Of a stretch of 37,816 nt of DNA, positions 5,802-24,064 are shown in pieces; positions within the stretch are counted from its first letter, which is position 1; each line of letters begins with the position of its first letter. The stretch comes from Pseudomonadales bacterium (GTDB lineage: Bacteria > Pseudomonadota > Gammaproteobacteria > Pseudomonadales > JAHRWD01), in contig JAESUM010000055.1 in assembly GCA_016763075.1 (NCBI GenBank), forward strand, positions 1 to 37,816, written 5' to 3'. The translations under genes and the position numbers were made by a program. The notes beneath the pieces were generated by a model. It had not been told where the DNA came from and searched no databases. It was given only the letters and a program-made list of their open reading frames with translations.

Positions 5802-6209
5802 TCACTTGATTTCAGAGTGGTTGGTGATTTCAGAATTTTTGGATTCTAAAAGCGTGATAATTTGTTCACTGGCATTTAAACAGCTGTTCACTAGCTCTTT
5901 CTTTTTAGCTGCGGTCAATTTTTTAATCGCAGCTTCACGAATACTCGCACTGCTTCTGTTGTGCTGCCCTTCGCAATACACTATTTTTTTTGGCTTGCGC
6001 CCACGGAAAAACTTAGCGCCTTTCTTTTGAGTATGATGTTCGGTAAAACGGCGCAAAGGGTCGGTACTAATACCTGTGTAGTAACTGCCATCATCCGAAA
6101 GAATAATGTATACATACCAATGTATTGAGGGTGCCTCTGTACTTTTTAGATCTTCGTTATTCGAAACTTTAGCTTCTGTTTTTTTATTATTATTTTCGAT
6201 AATTTTCAT
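5802..6209 (-). CDS. GIY-YIG domain protein (UPF0213/YhbQ-like)
   Basis: A 135-residue small protein with a single GIY-YIG nuclease-like domain. It shows WYVYIILSDDGSYYTGIS as the GIY…YIG core, then RRFTEHHTQKKGAKFFRGR and the helix with SIREAAIKKLTAAKK. Members of this family (for example YhbQ) are proposed structure-selective endonucleases acting in the cytoplasm, with poorly known roles. A short charged, Asn/Lys-rich N-terminus precedes the domain. The frame continues to a TTG at 6239, but the ATG at 6209 is the better start; neither has a strong ribosome-binding site. It lies directly downstream of the PRPP-synthetase-like gene on the same strand and converges with the hydrolase. Confidence 0.85.
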   Translation of the reverse strand: MKIIENNNKKTEAKVSNNEDLKSTEAPSIHWYVYIILSDDGSYYTGISTDPLRRFTEHHTQKKGAKFFRGRKPKKIVYCEGQHNRSSASIREAAIKKLTAAKKKELVNSCLNASEQIITLLESKNSEITNHSEIK

Positions 6210-6241
6210 TATGTATAGTTCTAGAAAATAACCGACCAAGC

Positions 6242-7204: not shown

Positions 7205-7465
7205 CAACACACATTCGTATTCATCCGGGTTAAAACCCTCAACATACCCCGACCATTCGTACTCAGCTTTCTCATGACATTTAAACGATTCAACTCGATC
7301 AAATAAAAAGTGTTCTTGTTGTCAACCAAAGCTTAAAACCAAGCGTTATAAGACGGTAGATATTGAATCTATCAAAGACTCAATAGATGACTTGTCGCCG
7401 AAGTGTTTTTAGATGTAACGGCACACCTTTGGAAATTTACGCTTTCACATACTAGGTATCAAACC

Positions 7466-9337
7466 ATGAAACTATTCAAACCAGGCTTTATCAAGAAACG
7501 TTCAAAACAGACGCTGCCGTACCTATACACACTCATCGCGGCGTTCATGGCTGTGACGTTAACGGCTTGTGATACCAGCAGCTCAACCGGTGCAAGTGAC
7601 GGCAACCTCACGGTTTCGTTAACCGATGCCCCAGGAGACTTTAGTGTTTATGCGGTAGACGTAACCGCCATCAGTTTGACCAATAAAAACGGCACGGTGA
7701 TCGAGACACTCCCGCTTTCTACCACTGTAGATTTCAGTCAATACGTTGATATGACTGAGTTTTTAACCGCCGGTACAGTACCCTCTGGTGCTTATACCCA
7801 TGGCTCTATGACATTAGATTTTAGCGCCGCAACCATTGAGGCCGAAGACCTGAACGGCAACCCAATTAGCATTACTCAATTTGTTGATACCGACGGGCAA
7901 GCGATCACAACGTTAGAGGTCAACATTCAGCTGGATGGCAAACATGCGCTGGTTATTGCCCCTGGCGTTGCATCTCATTTATCTTTAGATTTTGACCTTA
8001 AGGCGTCTAATTCAGTTGATTTCAGCGACCCCAATAACCCAGTACTGACTATTGACCCGGTCTTGATTGCTGAGGTTAATTTCGAACGAGATAAGCCTCA
8101 TCGTATCCGCGGTGCGATTAAAAACGTTGATGTCGACCAAAGCAGTTACACCGTTATTCTTCGGCCTTTTTTACACAAACAATCCAATGACAACCGTTTT
8201 GGTGAGCTAACGGTGATTACTGATTCACAAACGGTTTTTGATATCGATGACGTCAGCTACACCGGTGAGGGCGGGCTTAATGCCATGGCAGACCTGCCTG
8301 AACTAAGCGCCACCCGAGCCATTGGCCATCTTAAATTTAACCCGCGGCGCTTCGTTGCAACACAGGTATTGGCAGGAAGTAGTGTCGAAGGAGGGCAACA
8401 AGATGTTGTTCGCGGCACTGTAACCGCCCGAACTGGTGACACCCTAACGATTCAGGGCGCAACGCTAATTCGTGCAGACGGTAGCTTTGTGTTTAAAACC
8501 ACTATTGATGTATTGGTAGCAGATTCAACCCTAGTCAAAAAGCAGTTTTCAGTTGAAACACATAGCATCCTGGATGTGTCCGTTGGCCAGCGAGTCGCTA
8601 TATTTGGCCTGATAGTAGACCCCACCGCAGAGCAATTGGAATTAGATGCGAGTAACGGAGCCCTTAGAATGCTGATGACTGCGTTACGAGGGCATGTCGC
8701 GCAGAACGGTAACCTCAGCGCATCGGAATTGGCTATCGAGTTACAGTCCATAAACAGGCGACCCGCAGCAGTGTTCGACTTTAGCGGCACTGGCAAAGAT
8801 GCATCCAACGACGCGATGCCAAGCTTTTATCAAGTGGGCAACTCAACCTTAAACTTGAGTGAATTTAAACCTGGCTCGCCGTTGTTGGCTAAAGGCTTTG
8901 TGACGCCGTTTGGGTCGGCACCGATCGATTTTGAAGCGCACACATTAGTCAGCTTTGATGCATTAGCCGCCAATTTGGTCGTCATTTGGAACCCCGCAGT
9001 ACTTGATGCTTTCGCGACATTGAGCCCAACAGGGTTTACGCTCAATTTAACCGATAGCGGGCAGTTTCATCATTTAAGCCAAGGCGGGGGTTTGATTGAT
9101 TTAGCAGAGTTGGAAAGCGCTGTTCAAATAACCCCCACCGAAGCCGATTCAGCAGCCTATGCCATCACTCAGCCAAATTCACCACGAGTGGTGCATACAA
9201 CGTTTGCAGAGCTTGTAACGGACTTGCAAGCCAGACTAGATGCCGGAGCGGCCACGCGAAAGGTACATGTTCATGGCAATTATGATGCTGCAGCGCAGCA
9301 GCTGATAAGCGGGCGGATTTGGATACAGCTTCGATAG
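7466..9337 (+). CDS. DUF4382-type outer-envelope lipoprotein
   Basis: A 623-residue exported lipoprotein. The chosen ATG at 7466 opens a positively charged signal peptide (KPGFIKKRSK, then LIAAFMAVTLTAC), with lipobox LTAC and lipidated Cys35; 21 more codons are open upstream but do not fit a signal peptide. Residues about 45-190 match DUF4382 (LTVSLTDAPGDFSVYAVDVT, then VDFSQYVDMTEFL). Later segments (IRGAIKNVDVDQSSYTVIL, VRGTVTARTGDTLTIQG) resemble the small beta DUF5666-like modules often found after it. Asp follows Cys35 at the +2 position, which in enterobacteria favours inner-membrane retention. Function is unknown. It appears monocistronic and ends at a strong terminator. Confidence 0.85.
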   Translation: MKLFKPGFIKKRSKQTLPYLYTLIAAFMAVTLTACDTSSSTGASDGNLTVSLTDAPGDFSVYAVDVTAISLTNKNGTVIETLPLSTTVDFSQYVDMTEFLTAGTVPSGAYTHGSMTLDFSAATIEAEDLNGNPISITQFVDTDGQAITTLEVNIQLDGKHALVIAPGVASHLSLDFDLKASNSVDFSDPNNPVLTIDPVLIAEVNFERDKPHRIRGAIKNVDVDQSSYTVILRPFLHKQSNDNRFGELTVITDSQTVFDIDDVSYTGEGGLNAMADLPELSATRAIGHLKFNPRRFVATQVLAGSSVEGGQQDVVRGTVTARTGDTLTIQGATLIRADGSFVFKTTIDVLVADSTLVKKQFSVETHSILDVSVGQRVAIFGLIVDPTAEQLELDASNGALRMLMTALRGHVAQNGNLSASELAIELQSINRRPAAVFDFSGTGKDASNDAMPSFYQVGNSTLNLSEFKPGSPLLAKGFVTPFGSAPIDFEAHTLVSFDALAANLVVIWNPAVLDAFATLSPTGFTLNLTDSGQFHHLSQGGGLIDLAELESAVQITPTEADSAAYAITQPNSPRVVHTTFAELVTDLQARLDAGAATRKVHVHGNYDAAAQQLISGRIWIQLR

Positions 9338-9470: not shown

Positions 9471-10667
9471 TTAACGTGATTGAGACCATTCCAGCAATGA
9501 ATCTGCTGGCATAGGCCGAGCGATATGATAGCCCTGCCCAAAATCACAACCATAACTAACCAATATGTCCCATATTTCTTGGGATTCAATACCCTCCGCA
9601 ACAACTTTCATATCCAATTCATGACCTAACATGATGCATGTTTTTGCGATCGCCCGTGCTTCTTCATCATTGACCATGTCCATTACAAACCCACGGTCTA
9701 TTTTTAGCTCGGTAAAAGGAATGCGGTGCAAATGCGAAAGAGAAGAATAGCCCGTGCCAAAGTCATCAATAGAAAGAGAGAACCCTTTCATCCTTAGCCG
9801 AGTAAGGATGTCCAATGAGGTTACCAGTTCACCCATTAGTGTGCTTTCGGTAATCTCTAATGTAATGTCTGACGGCTCACATTGGTTTTTATGCAGCAGC
9901 GCCATGAGCTGCTCAGGCAAGCCTAAACTGGTGATGTTATCGGCTGATATATTGATTGAACAATGAAGTGCTAAACCCTCCTTCAACCATGCTTGACGGT
10001 CTTTCAGTACGGCGCCCAATACATACCCAGTTAATTGCTCCATCAAGCCGTTTTGCTCCGCTACGGGTATAAACGCATCAGGGAATATTAGGCCTTGCTC
10101 AGGGTGTTGCCAGCGTACCAGTGCCTCTACTCCAACCATGTCGCAGGTGGTCATATCCAGCACCGGTTGATAATGAATCAGTAGCTGCTCTTGGGTAATT
10201 GCTTGCACTACTTCTTCTGGCTTAGCGAGTGCTATTTCGCAGGAATGATAAAGTTTTTTTGTTGCTCGAAAGGAAGCAAATTGTTTCAGCAATATGCGTT
10301 GCAAATGTGGTATTTGGATGGGTTTACTCAGCGTGCCAATCACTTTAAGCGAGTGCGCTTTTGCTAGCTGCTCTGCGGAATGCAGTACGCCACGGTCATG
10401 ACCACTGATAAGAACCAAAGCGATGGGGAGCTTATTGGCCGACAAAGTTCGAATGACTTCGATACCATCAATACCCGGCATACTGAGATCGAGCAACACG
10501 ATATCTTGCCGATCAAGATCATGCGCAAGAAAATCAATAGCATGGGTGTAAATATGGGTATTAAAACCAACAATGCTCGCCGCCGTCGCCAACATTTCTG
10601 CGACCAGTCGATCATCGTCAACAATAATAATCTCTGTACCCAAAATCCTTCTCTCTGATTTTCCCAA
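9471..10667 (-). CDS. REC-EAL response regulator, cyclic-di-GMP phosphodiesterase
   Basis: A 398-residue two-domain protein. The N-terminal receiver domain has the acidic pocket VDDD (17-19), phospho-acceptor Asp60 in LLDLSMPG and Lys115 in TLSKP. A linker leads to an EAL domain (about 160-395) with EALVR (Glu181), NISA, EITES, DDFGTGYSS (301-309), KIDRGF and AEGIE (Glu358). All residues expected of an active phosphodiesterase degrading c-di-GMP to pGpG appear present. There is no ATG: the TTG at 10667 has a poor ribosome-binding site, whereas a TTG eight codons later (10643) is preceded by GAGAAGG. It lies 236 bases downstream of the large hybrid kinase on the same strand and is a likely output of it; that link is inferred. 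Confidence 0.92.
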   Translation of the reverse strand: MGKSERRILGTEIIIVDDDRLVAEMLATAASIVGFNTHIYTHAIDFLAHDLDRQDIVLLDLSMPGIDGIEVIRTLSANKLPIALVLISGHDRGVLHSAEQLAKAHSLKVIGTLSKPIQIPHLQRILLKQFASFRATKKLYHSCEIALAKPEEVVQAITQEQLLIHYQPVLDMTTCDMVGVEALVRWQHPEQGLIFPDAFIPVAEQNGLMEQLTGYVLGAVLKDRQAWLKEGLALHCSINISADNITSLGLPEQLMALLHKNQCEPSDITLEITESTLMGELVTSLDILTRLRMKGFSLSIDDFGTGYSSLSHLHRIPFTELKIDRGFVMDMVNDEEARAIAKTCIMLGHELDMKVVAEGIESQEIWDILVSYGCDFGQGYHIARPMPADSLLEWSQSR

Positions 10668-10903: not shown

Positions 10904-13900
10904 TTATTCAGCGTCAAGTAATTCACGTACGCGCTTGTATAGTGTTGTAGATTTAACCGGTTTAACCAACAATTTGTGTTGTAAACCCAGGTCCAGAGCA
11001 TCGGGCTGATAATCACCTGTAAAACCACTTACCAGCTGAATTTTAATGCTTGGAAAGCGCAGCTTAAGCTCTCGTGCTAATTGATAGCCGTCCATCATTG
11101 GCATAACAACATCGCTAATTACAAGGTCTACCGCGGTAGTCTCCAATATCTTTAACGCTTCATGAGCATCCTCAGCGCTGATCACTTGATAACCGACATT
11201 GGATAATAATTCTTGATTTAACTCTCGTATTGCAGGCTCGTCGTCGACGATTAAGATAGTTTCCTTTCCATGTGCTGATAAATTAAGCGCAGCTTCAAAA
11301 GTTTCTACCCTTGGTACCACCTCCACGATATGGCGAGGGAAGAATAATTCAAACCGAGTTCCAATTGTCGGCGTCGAGGTAACCGTAATAGTTCCACCGC
11401 TACGCTGCATAAAACCATACACTTGGCTAAGACCAAGGCCGCTACCCGCTTCGCCTTTGGTAGTAAAAAACGGATCAAAGATACGTGAGCTGACTGAGCT
11501 GTTCATCCCTATTCCGCTGTCATCTACGCAAAACACCACATAGTCGCCTGCAGATATATTCAGTTTATCCCCAGCGCTACGGTCTACAGTACGGTTAGAA
11601 GTCATGAGCGTAAGCTCACCCGCGCCTTCAATTGCATGCATTGCATTGATCGAAAGGTTTAGCAGGGCATCTTCAAATTCACCTTGATCTGCCCATGTTA
11701 ACCACAGGTTTTCTTGCATTTTTGTTATCAAAGTAATGCGAGGTGTTAGGGTTTTTTCTAGCATCTCGCGCTCATCTTCAATCAACGTATTAATAAGTAC
11801 TGCCTCTGATTCTGTTGATTTCTGCCTCGAGAATGCTAGTAATTTATTGGTAAGGCTCGCGCCGCGCTGACCTGCCTTTTTTATCTGGTCAACGTACCGC
11901 GCGACATCTTCATCAATTTCTTTTTCTTGAAGTAAATCAACATAGCCAAGAACTACACCCAACATGTTGTTGTAATCGTGTGCTATTCCGCCAGTTAACT
12001 TCCCCAATGCCTGCATTTTACGAACTTGCTGAAGCTGTAATTCCTGCTTTTGTAGCTCCGTTACATCTTTACAAGAAATGACGTACCGTTTTTCTCCAGA
12101 TGCCGACATCGGTAACTCGGCGGTTGAAAGCCGCACATCGAATGGCTCCCCATTTTTACGTTGAGCGGACAACACTTTATTAAACCCAAGGGTTAAAGGA
12201 TCGTTAGCAGATCCAGTCTCTGCACGACTACTGTATTGCTCTTCGACGATTAGGTTCTCAATCCGGCGGCCTATAATTTCTTGGCTTTTATACCCAAATA
12301 AGGTCTCAGCTGAACGGTTAAAGCTTAAAATAACCCGCCCTTCATCTACGGTAATAACACCATCTACGATATGGTTTAAGATCTGGTCCCGTTCAATTTC
12401 TTGCGCTTTCAATTCTTTTTCTACCCGATTCTGGGTTGAAATATCTTGAATTGAAGACGCCACACCAATCACATAACCATTCTCGTCAATGATCGGTGTA
12501 TTTTCCCACTGGCAAAAAATCGCTTTTCCTGACTTGGTTATATTTTCGTTCGCGCTCAACTGACCGCCAGTCTGATGTCCAAGCGATTCGCTAATACCCT
12601 GAACATATGCCTGTATATGCTCAGGTACAATCAAATCGTTCGCATGGCGACCCATGGCTTCTTCTTTGCTGTACCCAAATAATTTCTCGGCGGCTGGGTT
12701 CCAATCCACAACTTTGAACTCGGGACTCCATTCAACAAAGGCGAATGGGTTTTGTTCGCGATAGAGCCTTAAATGCCGTTCCGACTCTATCGCTGCCTGT
12801 TCCAATAAATAACGCGCAGTGATGTCGGTTGATATACCGCCAATAGCGTAAATCACTTTATCTTCATCAATCAACGGAAACATAACGGTCAAGAAATGAC
12901 GCTCTTCGCCGTCTATTTGATACTGCTCTACAAATTCTTGAGTTTCGCCGCATTGTTGAATTAATTGTTGGTAAGTGGAGTGTTGTTCTGCCTCAGCGGC
13001 AGACATAAGGCCATCAATTTTCGCACCAATAATTTGCTCCAACGGTATACCGAATAAATTCGATAATTTCTGATTTGCTAACAGAAATGTCCCTTCTAAA
13101 TCCTGCGTATAAATAATGGCTGGAGCGTGGTCTATAATCGCTTTTAGGTTATTGTTTGAATCTTGCAGCTTATTTAGCAACGATAACTGTTCACTGATAT
13201 CAAGCGACATACCACAAATCGCGTAAACTTCTTCTTTATGGTCGTAAAGCGGGAATTTTGTGGTCAGGTAGGTACGTGTACCCAATATGGTTTCAGCTTC
13301 ATTCTCCCAACTAAGAGATTTCTCTTCTCTAAGAACCATCTCGTCGTTTTGTTCGAATATTTCAGCGATAGTTGCAGGAAAAACATCTCTAGTTGCTTTG
13401 CCAATAACAGATTCATTCTCAAAACCAAAAGCTTTATCAAAAGCTCTATTTACGTTAATAAAACTTCCATCCAGGTTTTTTATAGCTAACAGCTGAGGCA
13501 TATTATCTAACACAGCCTCAAGCAATTGGTTGCGTTGAAAAATACTTTGTTGGAGTTTAAAATACTCGGTAATGTCTCTAAAAACGAGTATGACCCCTAA
13601 GATTTCTCCATCTTCAGTTTTAATCGGGGCGGCGCTGTCGGAGATTTGATATTCAGAACCGTCTCGAGAAACCAACAGCGTTCGATTATCTGGATTCGCG
13701 GCTCGCCCAGTAGACAATACACTCGCTACGGGATCTACTACCTTCTCCCTGGTTTCACTGTCTACGACAGAAAAAATATCTGTCAATAATCCCCCTTCGG
13801 CTTCTGAAAAATTACACGCGGTTAGATCTTCAGCTACAGCATTCATTCGTATAACACGCGCCTGAGTATCCGTTGCTATAATTCCATCACCAATACTATC

Positions 13901-14758
13901 AAGCATCAGCGATAAACCTTTTTCCCGAACGGCAATCGCTTCAACAGCGGCGGTTAACTCATTTTGTTTTTTTTCTACAAACTTATATGAACGCTGTTCC
14001 AATATACCAAATAGCTTGGTTATTTTTTTTGTCTCGCTAGGAAAAGAAGCTGATGAACGTACAATATTACGTTGGAGTGAAATATCTTTGACTAGCTGGC
14101 TCAACACCTTTAAACGGCGTGTGTGTAGCAGGTTTGCAAGTATCGCAAAAAATATCGCGCCAAGAACTACCGGTAAAAGAGTTGGGATCACACGCCAAAC
14201 TAAGCCAGCCTGAGTTCGCTCTTCTACCCACGTAAGATCAATTTTCTTGACCAAAAAACCAACTTGAGTAGATTCGGTACTGTTTTTAGGGGAGGGGAAA
14301 ACTATGGGTTGAAATAAGACCCAGCAATTCATTTCATCTAACAGCATGGTTTGAAATCGAAGTGTATTCGTAGCAGAAACCAATTTTTCTTTATACGGCG
14401 TATTAGCTAAACCTTGGAACAATTGCGCAAAACTCTTGCCATTGTCCGCGCGCTTAGTGCTTGCTAGCGCGATCATGTGCTGATCAAAAAACACCGCTTT
14501 AGAAACAGCCGGTTCAATGCTCATCATCGAGATTTCTTCCTGAATTTGCTCCATATCTTGCTTTCGGAGCAAATATTGCAGTATTCCTTGAAACTGCATG
14601 GCATCTGCAATCTCTGCTCTAAACAGTTCGTTTCGCAGCTCTTCAGTCAGCTGTAAATAATTCACATAAAGCGCAAGGCTCACCTGCAATGCCAAGATAA
14701 TGCAAATGACCCCCATCGATGCAATAAATGTGTTCGCCCTGATGCGCGTAAATTTCAT
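10904..14758 (-). CDS. Hybrid sensor histidine kinase with five PAS-like domains
   Basis: A 1284-residue inner-membrane hybrid kinase. TM1 is at about 12-32, a periplasmic sensor of about 155 residues follows, and TM2 is at about 188-211. Then come five PAS-like regions beginning near 283, 410, 535, 660 and 790 (each with a DGxI/LxxNxA core, for example GDGIIATDTQARVIRMN and VDGVITVDEGRVILSFN). The HisKA H-box is GGIAHDYNN (His927), the ATPase domain shows NLSINAMHA, DDSGIGM and GEAGSGLGLS, and the C-terminal receiver has Asp1216 in VISDVVMPMMDG. It should autophosphorylate and relay phosphate to its own receiver. The ATG at 14758 is chosen because it opens directly before TM1; a GTG 19 codons upstream overlaps the preceding reading frame. 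The upstream lipoprotein suggests a sensing partner. Confidence 0.93.
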   Translation of the reverse strand: MKFTRIRANTFIASMGVICIILALQVSLALYVNYLQLTEELRNELFRAEIADAMQFQGILQYLLRKQDMEQIQEEISMMSIEPAVSKAVFFDQHMIALASTKRADNGKSFAQLFQGLANTPYKEKLVSATNTLRFQTMLLDEMNCWVLFQPIVFPSPKNSTESTQVGFLVKKIDLTWVEERTQAGLVWRVIPTLLPVVLGAIFFAILANLLHTRRLKVLSQLVKDISLQRNIVRSSASFPSETKKITKLFGILEQRSYKFVEKKQNELTAAVEAIAVREKGLSLMLDSIGDGIIATDTQARVIRMNAVAEDLTACNFSEAEGGLLTDIFSVVDSETREKVVDPVASVLSTGRAANPDNRTLLVSRDGSEYQISDSAAPIKTEDGEILGVILVFRDITEYFKLQQSIFQRNQLLEAVLDNMPQLLAIKNLDGSFINVNRAFDKAFGFENESVIGKATRDVFPATIAEIFEQNDEMVLREEKSLSWENEAETILGTRTYLTTKFPLYDHKEEVYAICGMSLDISEQLSLLNKLQDSNNNLKAIIDHAPAIIYTQDLEGTFLLANQKLSNLFGIPLEQIIGAKIDGLMSAAEAEQHSTYQQLIQQCGETQEFVEQYQIDGEERHFLTVMFPLIDEDKVIYAIGGISTDITARYLLEQAAIESERHLRLYREQNPFAFVEWSPEFKVVDWNPAAEKLFGYSKEEAMGRHANDLIVPEHIQAYVQGISESLGHQTGGQLSANENITKSGKAIFCQWENTPIIDENGYVIGVASSIQDISTQNRVEKELKAQEIERDQILNHIVDGVITVDEGRVILSFNRSAETLFGYKSQEIIGRRIENLIVEEQYSSRAETGSANDPLTLGFNKVLSAQRKNGEPFDVRLSTAELPMSASGEKRYVISCKDVTELQKQELQLQQVRKMQALGKLTGGIAHDYNNMLGVVLGYVDLLQEKEIDEDVARYVDQIKKAGQRGASLTNKLLAFSRQKSTESEAVLINTLIEDEREMLEKTLTPRITLITKMQENLWLTWADQGEFEDALLNLSINAMHAIEGAGELTLMTSNRTVDRSAGDKLNISAGDYVVFCVDDSGIGMNSSVSSRIFDPFFTTKGEAGSGLGLSQVYGFMQRSGGTITVTSTPTIGTRFELFFPRHIVEVVPRVETFEAALNLSAHGKETILIVDDEPAIRELNQELLSNVGYQVISAEDAHEALKILETTAVDLVISDVVMPMMDGYQLARELKLRFPSIKIQLVSGFTGDYQPDALDLGLQHKLLVKPVKSTTLYKRVRELLDAE

Positions 14759-14759
14759 A

Positions 14760-14942
14760 TTAATACTCACGCTTCTCAGGGAATAAAGACTCAAACACCA
14801 CAGAGCTAGAATCACTCATAAAAGCATTAAAATTATTGCCTGAGGCTTGCCATCCACTGCATTGGGGATTCTGGTAAGCAGGAAAATGATTTGATCTAAA
14901 AAAATGCTGAGGCCACAAACTATCCACTAGAAATTGAGCTCC
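14760..14942 (-). other. Out-of-frame C-terminal extension of the binding-protein gene
   Basis: If the reading frame of the binding-protein-like gene slips by -1 at the seven-A run, it continues for 60 residues (starting GAQFLVDSLWPQHF, ending SLFPEKREY) to a TAA at 14760-14762. That stop lies one base before the kinase ATG at 14758. The tight junction and protein-like composition argue that this is the true or ancestral C-terminus. Confidence 0.6.
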
Positions 14943-15643
14943 TTTTTTTCTACTCCAATATTCAGTTGTTCGGCTTTCGAAAAATTCACTGCATGTTCAG
15001 TTATATAATTTGCGGCCCGGCGCCAACCGTGAACTAATAAATTTACAGTATTTTCGTTCGCTAAAAGAAACTTTTGCCTGATAACCAGTACCTTAAGTTT
15101 TTCGGTAGAAGGTTCGGCCCGCTCAAACAATGAAGCGGAACCCATTGGCTCCAGTGCTTTTTTAATTGGATCTAATGTTGGGAAGAGATTCCCATGAAGA
15201 AACCCGTGTGAATTTATTGGTTTCACAGAAATAGTACTCGTTTGAGACCAATCAGCCCTCACGTTAACGGTTTCTGAGGGGTGATCCATAAGCAAGACCA
15301 CGCGAGGCTGGTAACCTTGATTTAGCAGTAAAGAAGATTCAGAAAGGGTAAGTGCGGCCCCATCAATCTGGCCATTACGATAGGCTCTCATTACCTGAGA
15401 GGTAGAAGAAAACTCAATCAGTCGAATATCTTCGCCATTGAAATAATTGAGCTGGTCAGCAAGGTACAGTGAATCGTAGCCAAGCCCAATATTGGTCCCT
15501 ATTCGCAACTGTTGATTGCGAGGGCTGTCGGTAGAGCAGCCAAGCATCAGTGCCAGAACTAGCCCGATAGTCACATGATTTGTGTAAGATTTCCTTCGAT
15601 CCCCAAGTCCATGGGGTAACAGCTTCTTCAAAACAATTGCCAA
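14927..15643 (-). CDS. NMT1/THI5-like periplasmic binding lipoprotein, frame broken near its end
   Basis: As read, 238 residues. The TTG start is supported by AAGGAG six bases upstream. A signal peptide ends in the lipobox LMLGC (Cys36). The mature part resembles SsuA/NMT1-type solute-binding proteins: LRIGTNIGLGYDSLYLAD, then FSSTSQVMRAYRNGQIDGAALTL, YQPRVVLLMDH and KVLVIRQKFL. The stretch that family members usually carry after the MDHS-like motif (a DLKGKxVGVE-type lobe crossover) seems missing or much shortened. The frame ends early at a TAG after the heptamer A AAA AAG (14942-14948); the -1 frame continues 60 residues to the kinase gene. It could be a sensor partner of that kinase, or a decaying gene. 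Confidence 0.7.
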   Translation of the reverse strand: MAIVLKKLLPHGLGDRRKSYTNHVTIGLVLALMLGCSTDSPRNQQLRIGTNIGLGYDSLYLADQLNYFNGEDIRLIEFSSTSQVMRAYRNGQIDGAALTLSESSLLLNQGYQPRVVLLMDHPSETVNVRADWSQTSTISVKPINSHGFLHGNLFPTLDPIKKALEPMGSASLFERAEPSTEKLKVLVIRQKFLLANENTVNLLVHGWRRAANYITEHAVNFSKAEQLNIGVEKKELNF

Positions 15644-15880
15644 AACAATCTCCTTGAATTAACCACACGATACTGTGTTTTAAACGATATTAGCTTAGAA
15701 CCATAATTAGTAGCAACCTATGAATAACATTTTAGGCAAGCAATAATCATGGCAACTCATTGTTTAGAATAGAAATTGCGCGGTGCGCAAGGCCACCCTA
15801 ACCTGCTATGAAGGTGTTATTGAAGAATTCAAGAAGTAATTTAAAGTCAATTTACAGCATCAAATTGCCAAATTTTAGGC

Positions 15881-23443: not shown

Positions 23444-24064
23444 ATGAAATTCAAGATACTTTCAAACACGCTATTAGCTGGCTTAGCATTAACCATCGGC
23501 ACGGCTTAAGCCGCAGACCCGATGCTTGACCCCATGCTTGATCTAACTAAAGAAAAGCCTAACGCGTTTAGTTACAACTATGTTGAAGCAAACTATGTCA
23601 ATCTCTCCGGTGGCTTCAACGGTATTGAATTTGCTGGTTCATTCGACTTCCGAAAAAACCTCGGCGTCGCTGCATCATACTTAACAGCAAGTACAGGTGG
23701 ATTTGATTACGACCTCATTTCAGTAGAGGGCCTCTATCACTTTCAGTTTGACCGGATCGACGAGCTTAAAGATCTCGACGTAATCGCTCACGTTGGCATA
23801 GAAAATGGCGAAACCAGTTTTAATTTTTTGGGTACCACCCTTTCAGTTAGTGACACTGGTTTGCGTTTCGGCGTGAAAGTAAGAGCTCAGATCGCCCCTC
23901 AAATCGAGGCATTTGCCGACATGTCCTACACCACTTTATTTTCTGGTGACCTGAATATTCTCGGTGGTGGCGTGTTCAGCATTAATGAGCAAATAGGTGT
24001 TTATGCAAGCTACGAGCTAGCAGATGCCAATATCATTTCAATTGGCGCGCGTTTTTCATTCTAA
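23444..24064 (+). pseudogene. Outer-membrane beta-barrel protein gene with an in-frame stop in the signal peptide
   Basis: From the ATG at 23444 the frame reads MKFKILSNTLLAGLALTIGTA, then TAA (23507-23509), then AADPMLDPMLD and onward to the stop at 24062-24064. Ignoring the TAA it is a complete exported protein of about 206 residues: signal peptide, cleavage near the AADP junction, alternating strands (FDFRKNLGVAASYLT, LYHFQFDRID, YASYELADANI) and a C-terminal Phe (GARFSF) as outer-membrane proteins have. One base change, CAA to TAA, would give TAQAADP, an ordinary signal-peptidase site. The downstream ATG at 23522 would give a 180-residue protein without a signal. I do not recognise a specific family; a porin-like function is possible. 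It may be inactivated, recoded or a base error. Confidence 0.75.

Follow-up and report, generated by a model that had tools for sequence, protein, structure and literature searches.

A broken substrate-binding lipoprotein gene carrying an A AAA AAG heptamer is probably a decaying pseudogene beside an intact hybrid kinase gene

The window, a stretch of 37,816 nucleotides from contig JAESUM010000055.1 of a Pseudomonadales bacterium, contains on its reverse strand an open reading frame of 238 residues (14927..15643, -) that encodes an eroded NMT1/SsuA-like substrate-binding lipoprotein. It begins with a TTG at 15643, which is preceded at a distance of 6 nt by a perfect Shine-Dalgarno sequence AAGGAG (15650..15655, -). 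The 3′ end of this zero frame reads gta GAA AAA AAG gag ctc aat ttc TAG, with the stop codon at 14929-14927 (-), and harbors an A AAA AAG heptamer (14942..14948, -) in the zero-frame phase, the A residues of which belong to a seven-A run (14949-14943, -). In addition, a GGAG motif (14953..14956, -) ends 4 nt upstream of the heptamer. The -1 frame would give a product of 294 residues (234 + 60) terminated by a TAA (14762-14760, -), one base before the ATG of the kinase gene at 14758. Of these features, those given in a preliminary description of the locus were verified here: the sequence, position and phase of the heptamer, the zero-frame stop four codons past it, the nearby GGAG, and the 60 residues added by the -1 frame up to the kinase junction. 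As the zero and -1 frames are both open over 67 nt (14996-14930), the site of the break cannot be fixed to the heptamer from the sequence alone. Upstream of the gene, a terminator-like hairpin of 12 pairs followed by a T-run (15913-15887, -) separates it from a moaA-like gene. Given this hairpin, the binding-protein gene may start its own transcript; promoter-like sites were no commoner than in shuffled sequences (2 versus 3.1).

The adjacent hybrid histidine kinase gene (10904..14758, -) is intact and encodes a protein of 1284 residues composed of PAS repeats and HisKA, HATPase and receiver domains. The next gene on the same strand, also intact, encodes a receiver-EAL response regulator (9471..10667, -). 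Beside these signalling genes lies a gene on the opposite strand (7403-9337, +) for a 644-residue protein with a DUF4382 domain (residues 67-202), which is 63% identical to its counterpart in the relative G001.

The homologue search covered 145 genomes, including that of the window, and gave matches in 31 of them. Among these genomes the family is represented by two only, that of the window and G001, the latter belonging to the same genus and being the sole close relative found. A scan of GTDB contigs, which reaches close relatives only, returned a single locus, again that of G001 (MAG contig JARGPR010000008.1), and a plasmid search gave no match. The two genomes share the gene order of moaA-like radical SAM protein, binding protein, hybrid kinase and receiver-EAL regulator. 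The binding protein of G001 has 362 residues encoded in a single frame that lacks the heptamer, and its stop codon lies 2 nt before the kinase ATG. At the position aligned to the heptamer, G001 reads GGGCTTAGCCCTGAACAG, without an A-run. The kinases of the two genomes are 59% identical across 1284 residues; over the first 240 residues, where the membrane and periplasmic parts lie as judged by eye, identity is 40-57% per 60-residue block. Altogether 31 window genes, the kinase gene among them, each align in a single frame with their G001 orthologue, at identities of 56-94%. These genes were picked for having a single-frame orthologue in G001, a choice under which broken genes without an orthologue are undetectable, and the ORFs at 5802-6239 and 23522-24064 fall outside the set.

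The wider set of homologues gave the same picture at the frame break. All 28 homologous genes examined for the motif read in one frame, and neither A_AAA_AAG nor A_AAA_AAA was found in phase in any of them; this count refers to 28 of 30 loci (L021 and L032 left out), with some weaker matches outside the set. The preliminary description had proposed to check whether homologues keep the phased heptamer together with an out-of-frame tail, and neither is present in these 28 genes. The profile, similarity and conserved-site counts given below rest on 24 of the 30 translated loci, after exclusion of L021 (no full-length gene), L032 (a duplicate of L002), L015 (cut short by the choice of start) and L009, L011 and L029, which were judged by eye to be near copies of retained rows.

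Comparison with these 24 intact homologues revealed damage well beyond the frame break. Profile positions 8-106 and 181-245 were found in the zero frame, whereas no match was obtained between positions 106 and 181 or after 245 in any of the three frames, even with the filters off. The missing part corresponds to a replaced or deleted middle (15164..15283, -; limits approximate, from the alignment), where the window copy has 40 residues compared to 79 in the orthologue, and only the 3′ edge of this region reaches a profile match. The frame break is therefore not the sole lesion. The zero-frame ORF does not encode a complete two-lobe protein: the N-lobe is recognizable, but the second lobe is gutted. 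Pfam NMT1_2 still recognizes the protein with 35.1 bits (cut-off 24.7), yet only over profile positions 3-84 of 252. The SsuA_fam model scores the window copy at 24.1 bits and the intact orthologue at 129.2 bits, both under the cut-off of 163.5. Structure predictions, built on alignments of two sequences only, reached mean pLDDT values of 42.2 and 38.6, too poor for a judgement.

Many conserved sites are altered as well. At columns conserved in at least 80% of the homologues, the window copy keeps 12 of 29 residues, one of the misses being the TTG start written as L, whereas in a leave-one-out control each of the 24 intact homologues keeps at least 21 of 32. Among the lost residues are the near-invariant W73 of the GTNxWPGY motif (present in 22 of 24 homologues) together with S, G and D in the SAGAD motif (in 24, 23 and 22 of 24, respectively). 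Over five segments of the protein, the window copy is less similar than the G001 protein to 22, 23, 22, 21 and 23 of the 23 other homologues. Codon usage points the same way in part: the body scores 0.113 bits per codon (234 codons), compared to a lowest value of 0.184 among the 31 intact genes, although two of the five windows of body and tail score normally (24.9 and 23.9 percentile) and the intact G001 gene is also low at its ends (-0.024 and 0.075). By contrast, the N-lobe is 54-56% identical to that of G001 with a pN of 0.27 versus 0.26 for the kinase, suggesting selective constraint on it up to recent times, if not to the present. With synonymous sites close to saturation (pS 0.63 to 0.91), dN/dS cannot show decay. 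In sum, the gene bears the marks of a pseudogene in its frame, which is broken relative to an intact orthologue, in its faster change and in its loss of conserved sites. Frameshift-aware alignment also offered a second break near the N-terminus (~15604), which was rejected as it gained a total of only 2, 7 and 10 points at penalties of 15, 10 and 8, and further shifts at 14937 and 14927, which appeared at penalty 8 only and were treated as noise.

The 60-codon tail in the -1 frame is open but resembles the C-terminus of no homologue. Its local alignment with the C-terminus of the G001 protein yields a score of 23 (mean of shuffles 21.0), which 575 of 2,000 shuffles reach; the homologue profile gave no match to it in any of the three frames. 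Its codon score (-0.069) lies under those of all 297 60-codon windows of intact genes (lowest -0.014). The shifted frame had been suggested to be the true C-terminus, which is supported for the frame, given the position of the G001 stop just before the kinase ATG, but not for the residues, which match no homologue. The simplest reading is that the tail is a diverged remnant in the old C-terminal frame. Its freedom from stops is somewhat out of the ordinary: when the tail was shuffled by mononucleotides, 510 of 20,000 sequences were stop-free, as were 18 of 1,706 wrong-frame and 240 of 2,559 antisense windows of 60 codons in intact genes. As DNA, the heptamer is not rare: AAAAAAG occurs 14 times in the window compared to a mean of 15.4 in shuffles. 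Within the 10,240 codons of the 31 intact genes, A_AAA_AAG is found in phase once and A_AAA_AAA seven times. The single in-phase A_AAA_AAG lies in the kinase gene (10904-14758, -), which also has two in-phase A_AAA_AAA and no frame break, and thus provides a useful internal control.

Against this background, several other explanations of the frame break were weighed. Programmed -1 frameshifting at A AAA AAG would yield the 294-residue protein beside the 238-residue one, and the locus resembles E. coli dnaX in having this heptamer in the zero-frame phase, followed by a -1 frame that is open to the kinase junction. It differs from dnaX in the absence of a hairpin, in the damage to the host gene and in the lack of conservation of the motif in the genes examined. 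Moreover, the Shine-Dalgarno sequence of dnaX lies ~10 nt upstream of the heptamer, compared to 4 nt for the GGAG here. The 80 nt downstream of the heptamer fold with only -7.0 kcal/mol in a pseudoknot-free model (z = +1.91), a stability equalled or exceeded by 196 of 200 shuffles, which bears out the earlier remark that no convincing hairpin follows. A AAA AAG is reported among the best motifs in E. coli when stimulated, but the best such heptamers shift at ~0.3% without stimulators, and the best 3′ context raises the unstimulated shift to at most ~3.7% (PMC4066793). The poor fold, the GGAG spacing, the low unstimulated rates and the missing conservation in the 28 genes examined together make a programmed signal extremely unlikely, and both of its products would be without the core of the second lobe. 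Transcriptional slippage was set aside: seven A residues fall short of slippage-prone runs, reported as nine and in some organisms eight (PMC1088944), and the product would still miss this core. A homopolymer error in the reads or the assembly would fit a break in a seven-base A-run of a draft genome of 95 contigs. Nevertheless, the 31 genes, chosen as intact, contain 14 runs of at least seven bases in 30,813 coding bases, none of them frame-broken relative to G001. Frequent read errors are therefore unlikely, and we regard such an error as quite improbable. Even if it were real, the core of the second lobe and most conserved sites would be missing and the gene would be judged in the same way. 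The preliminary description had left open programmed frameshifting, a real mutation and a sequencing error, and held that eight A residues would make this a plain intact gene. Its caution was sound, but its premise of an otherwise good gene does not survive the 12 of 29 conserved sites and the 40 residues in place of 79, as this damage lies far ahead of the A-run. The idea that the gene still encodes a functional sensor, shortened to one lobe and keeping the N-lobe for contact with the kinase without binding a ligand, agrees with the N-lobe identity to G001 and its kinase-like pN, with the good start site, and with the 40-57% identity per block over kinase residues 1-240. However, this N-lobe is less similar than that of G001 to 22 of 23 homologues and no longer has the nearly invariant tryptophan of GTNxWPGY, leaving a one-lobe sensor highly unlikely.

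A further arrangement, missed in the preliminary description, would be compatible with decay. A perfect AAGGAG (14939..14944, -) emerges from the end of the A-run and is followed 11 nt later by a GTG, which shares a base with the zero-frame stop (TAGTG) and opens a 55-codon ORF in the tail (-1) frame (14760..14927, -), ending one base before the kinase ATG. Ribosomes on the mRNA of a dead or dying protein might thus still translate up to the kinase start, by stopping at the TAG, restarting at the overlapping GTG via AAGGAG, reading 55 codons and stopping at the TAA before the kinase ATG. Without such a restart, the 168-nt gap after the zero-frame stop would uncouple the kinase, since translational coupling is reported to be nearly abolished at ~20 nt in gene pairs of E. 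coli and Haloferax (PMC10666635). The kinase ATG itself has a poor Shine-Dalgarno sequence with 3 of 6 matches, and at 15 of 26 homologous loci the next ORF begins no more than 6 nt from the stop of the binding-protein gene, counting overlaps (L021 and L032 dropped; start taken as the first ATG; downstream genes of whatever identity), L012 and L013 lacking a downstream ORF of 150 aa or longer. Counting both strands, the window has 3,661 stop triplets, and no other combines an out-of-frame start at a distance of 4 nt or less with a perfect AAGGAG 4-12 nt upstream of that start; the stop here also has the 55 open codons after the restart GTG. However, the arrangement was seen first and counted afterwards, so that the count is a description rather than a test, and at 5 of 6 matches 52 of the 3,661 stops qualify, 14 of them having 55 or more open codons. 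A spacing of 11 nt is long, the Shine-Dalgarno sequence stems from an A-run that may be a mere indel site, the arrangement is found in one genome only, and the kinase may need no coupling, as 17 of 21 other window starts scored match 4 of 6 or fewer. Compared to known termination-reinitiation pairs (PMC10666635), the locus shares the out-of-frame stop/start overlap with an upstream Shine-Dalgarno sequence, whereas what follows its start is a remnant of 55 codons and not a gene. Judged from these sequence features, reinitiation up to the kinase is plausible and would need no functional binding protein, though on balance we think it rather unlikely that it operates. It is likewise unlikely that the dead sensor gene has been kept as a translational leader, with the A-run having at once broken the frame and supplied a new ribosome-binding site, a case in which selection would keep the openness and the handover but not the protein. 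If the relay did operate, the operon would keep its downstream gene expressed while the upstream gene decays.

Taken together, the binding-protein gene is probably a decaying pseudogene beside an intact kinase gene. We propose that the ancestor encoded an NMT1/SsuA-type lipoprotein directly before the hybrid kinase, and, judging from the gene order, this lipoprotein was probably the periplasmic sensing partner of the kinase. In the lineage of the window, about 40 codons of the second lobe would have been lost and many conserved sites altered, and the reading frame would have broken within 14996-14930, the seven-A run being the simplest site. As a result the zero frame would now stop at 238 residues, leaving the old C-terminal frame as an open, diverged tail, and the heptamer would be the A-rich run where the frame happened to break rather than a conserved recoding signal. 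The kinase-like pN of the N-lobe, the retained start with its perfect Shine-Dalgarno sequence and the stop-free tail speak against decay. Nevertheless, we infer that the locus no longer yields a working binding protein and that its frame was broken by a genuine mutation, not by an error in the reads. The kinase would then either sense its signal directly through its own periplasmic part or belong to a pathway in the midst of rewiring.

Both halves of this reading have parallels. In the GeneTack catalogue of frame transitions, 4,010 pseudogene clusters are reported compared to 146 recoding clusters (PMC3711429). The present case is like those pseudogenes in having a frame shift in a gene that is intact in relatives, but differs in that theirs were clustered, whereas the single genome here cannot be. 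Genes for substrate-binding proteins adjoin those for sensor kinases in AgtB/AgtS and PA4985/AruS, as they do here, although adjacent pairs are reported not always to be functionally linked (PMC11113362). In the window, by contrast, the second lobe is gutted and the frame is broken. The locus may serve as a warning case: where a frame breaks at a slippery heptamer of the textbook kind, the motif may be no more than an incidental stretch of A residues in a gene under decay, and one intact relative was enough to settle most of the question about the heptamer.

A distant homologue, L021 (G010:C12, ~1501-1764), is likewise reduced to an N-lobe remnant, which matches profile positions 12-94 with 59.1 bits in an open frame of 114 aa. 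Nothing of the remaining protein was found in six frames, nor any A-run of 6 or more within the stretch examined, indicating that such genes decay elsewhere too, without a slippery motif. The genome of the window (95% complete) has a single NMT1_2 match, the broken gene itself, compared to four in G001, which fits a lineage that is losing such proteins. Two of the G001 matches are in adjacent genes (L045, G001:C14:86000-97000), and this pair adjoins, as judged by eye, genes for an ABC ATPase and a permease.
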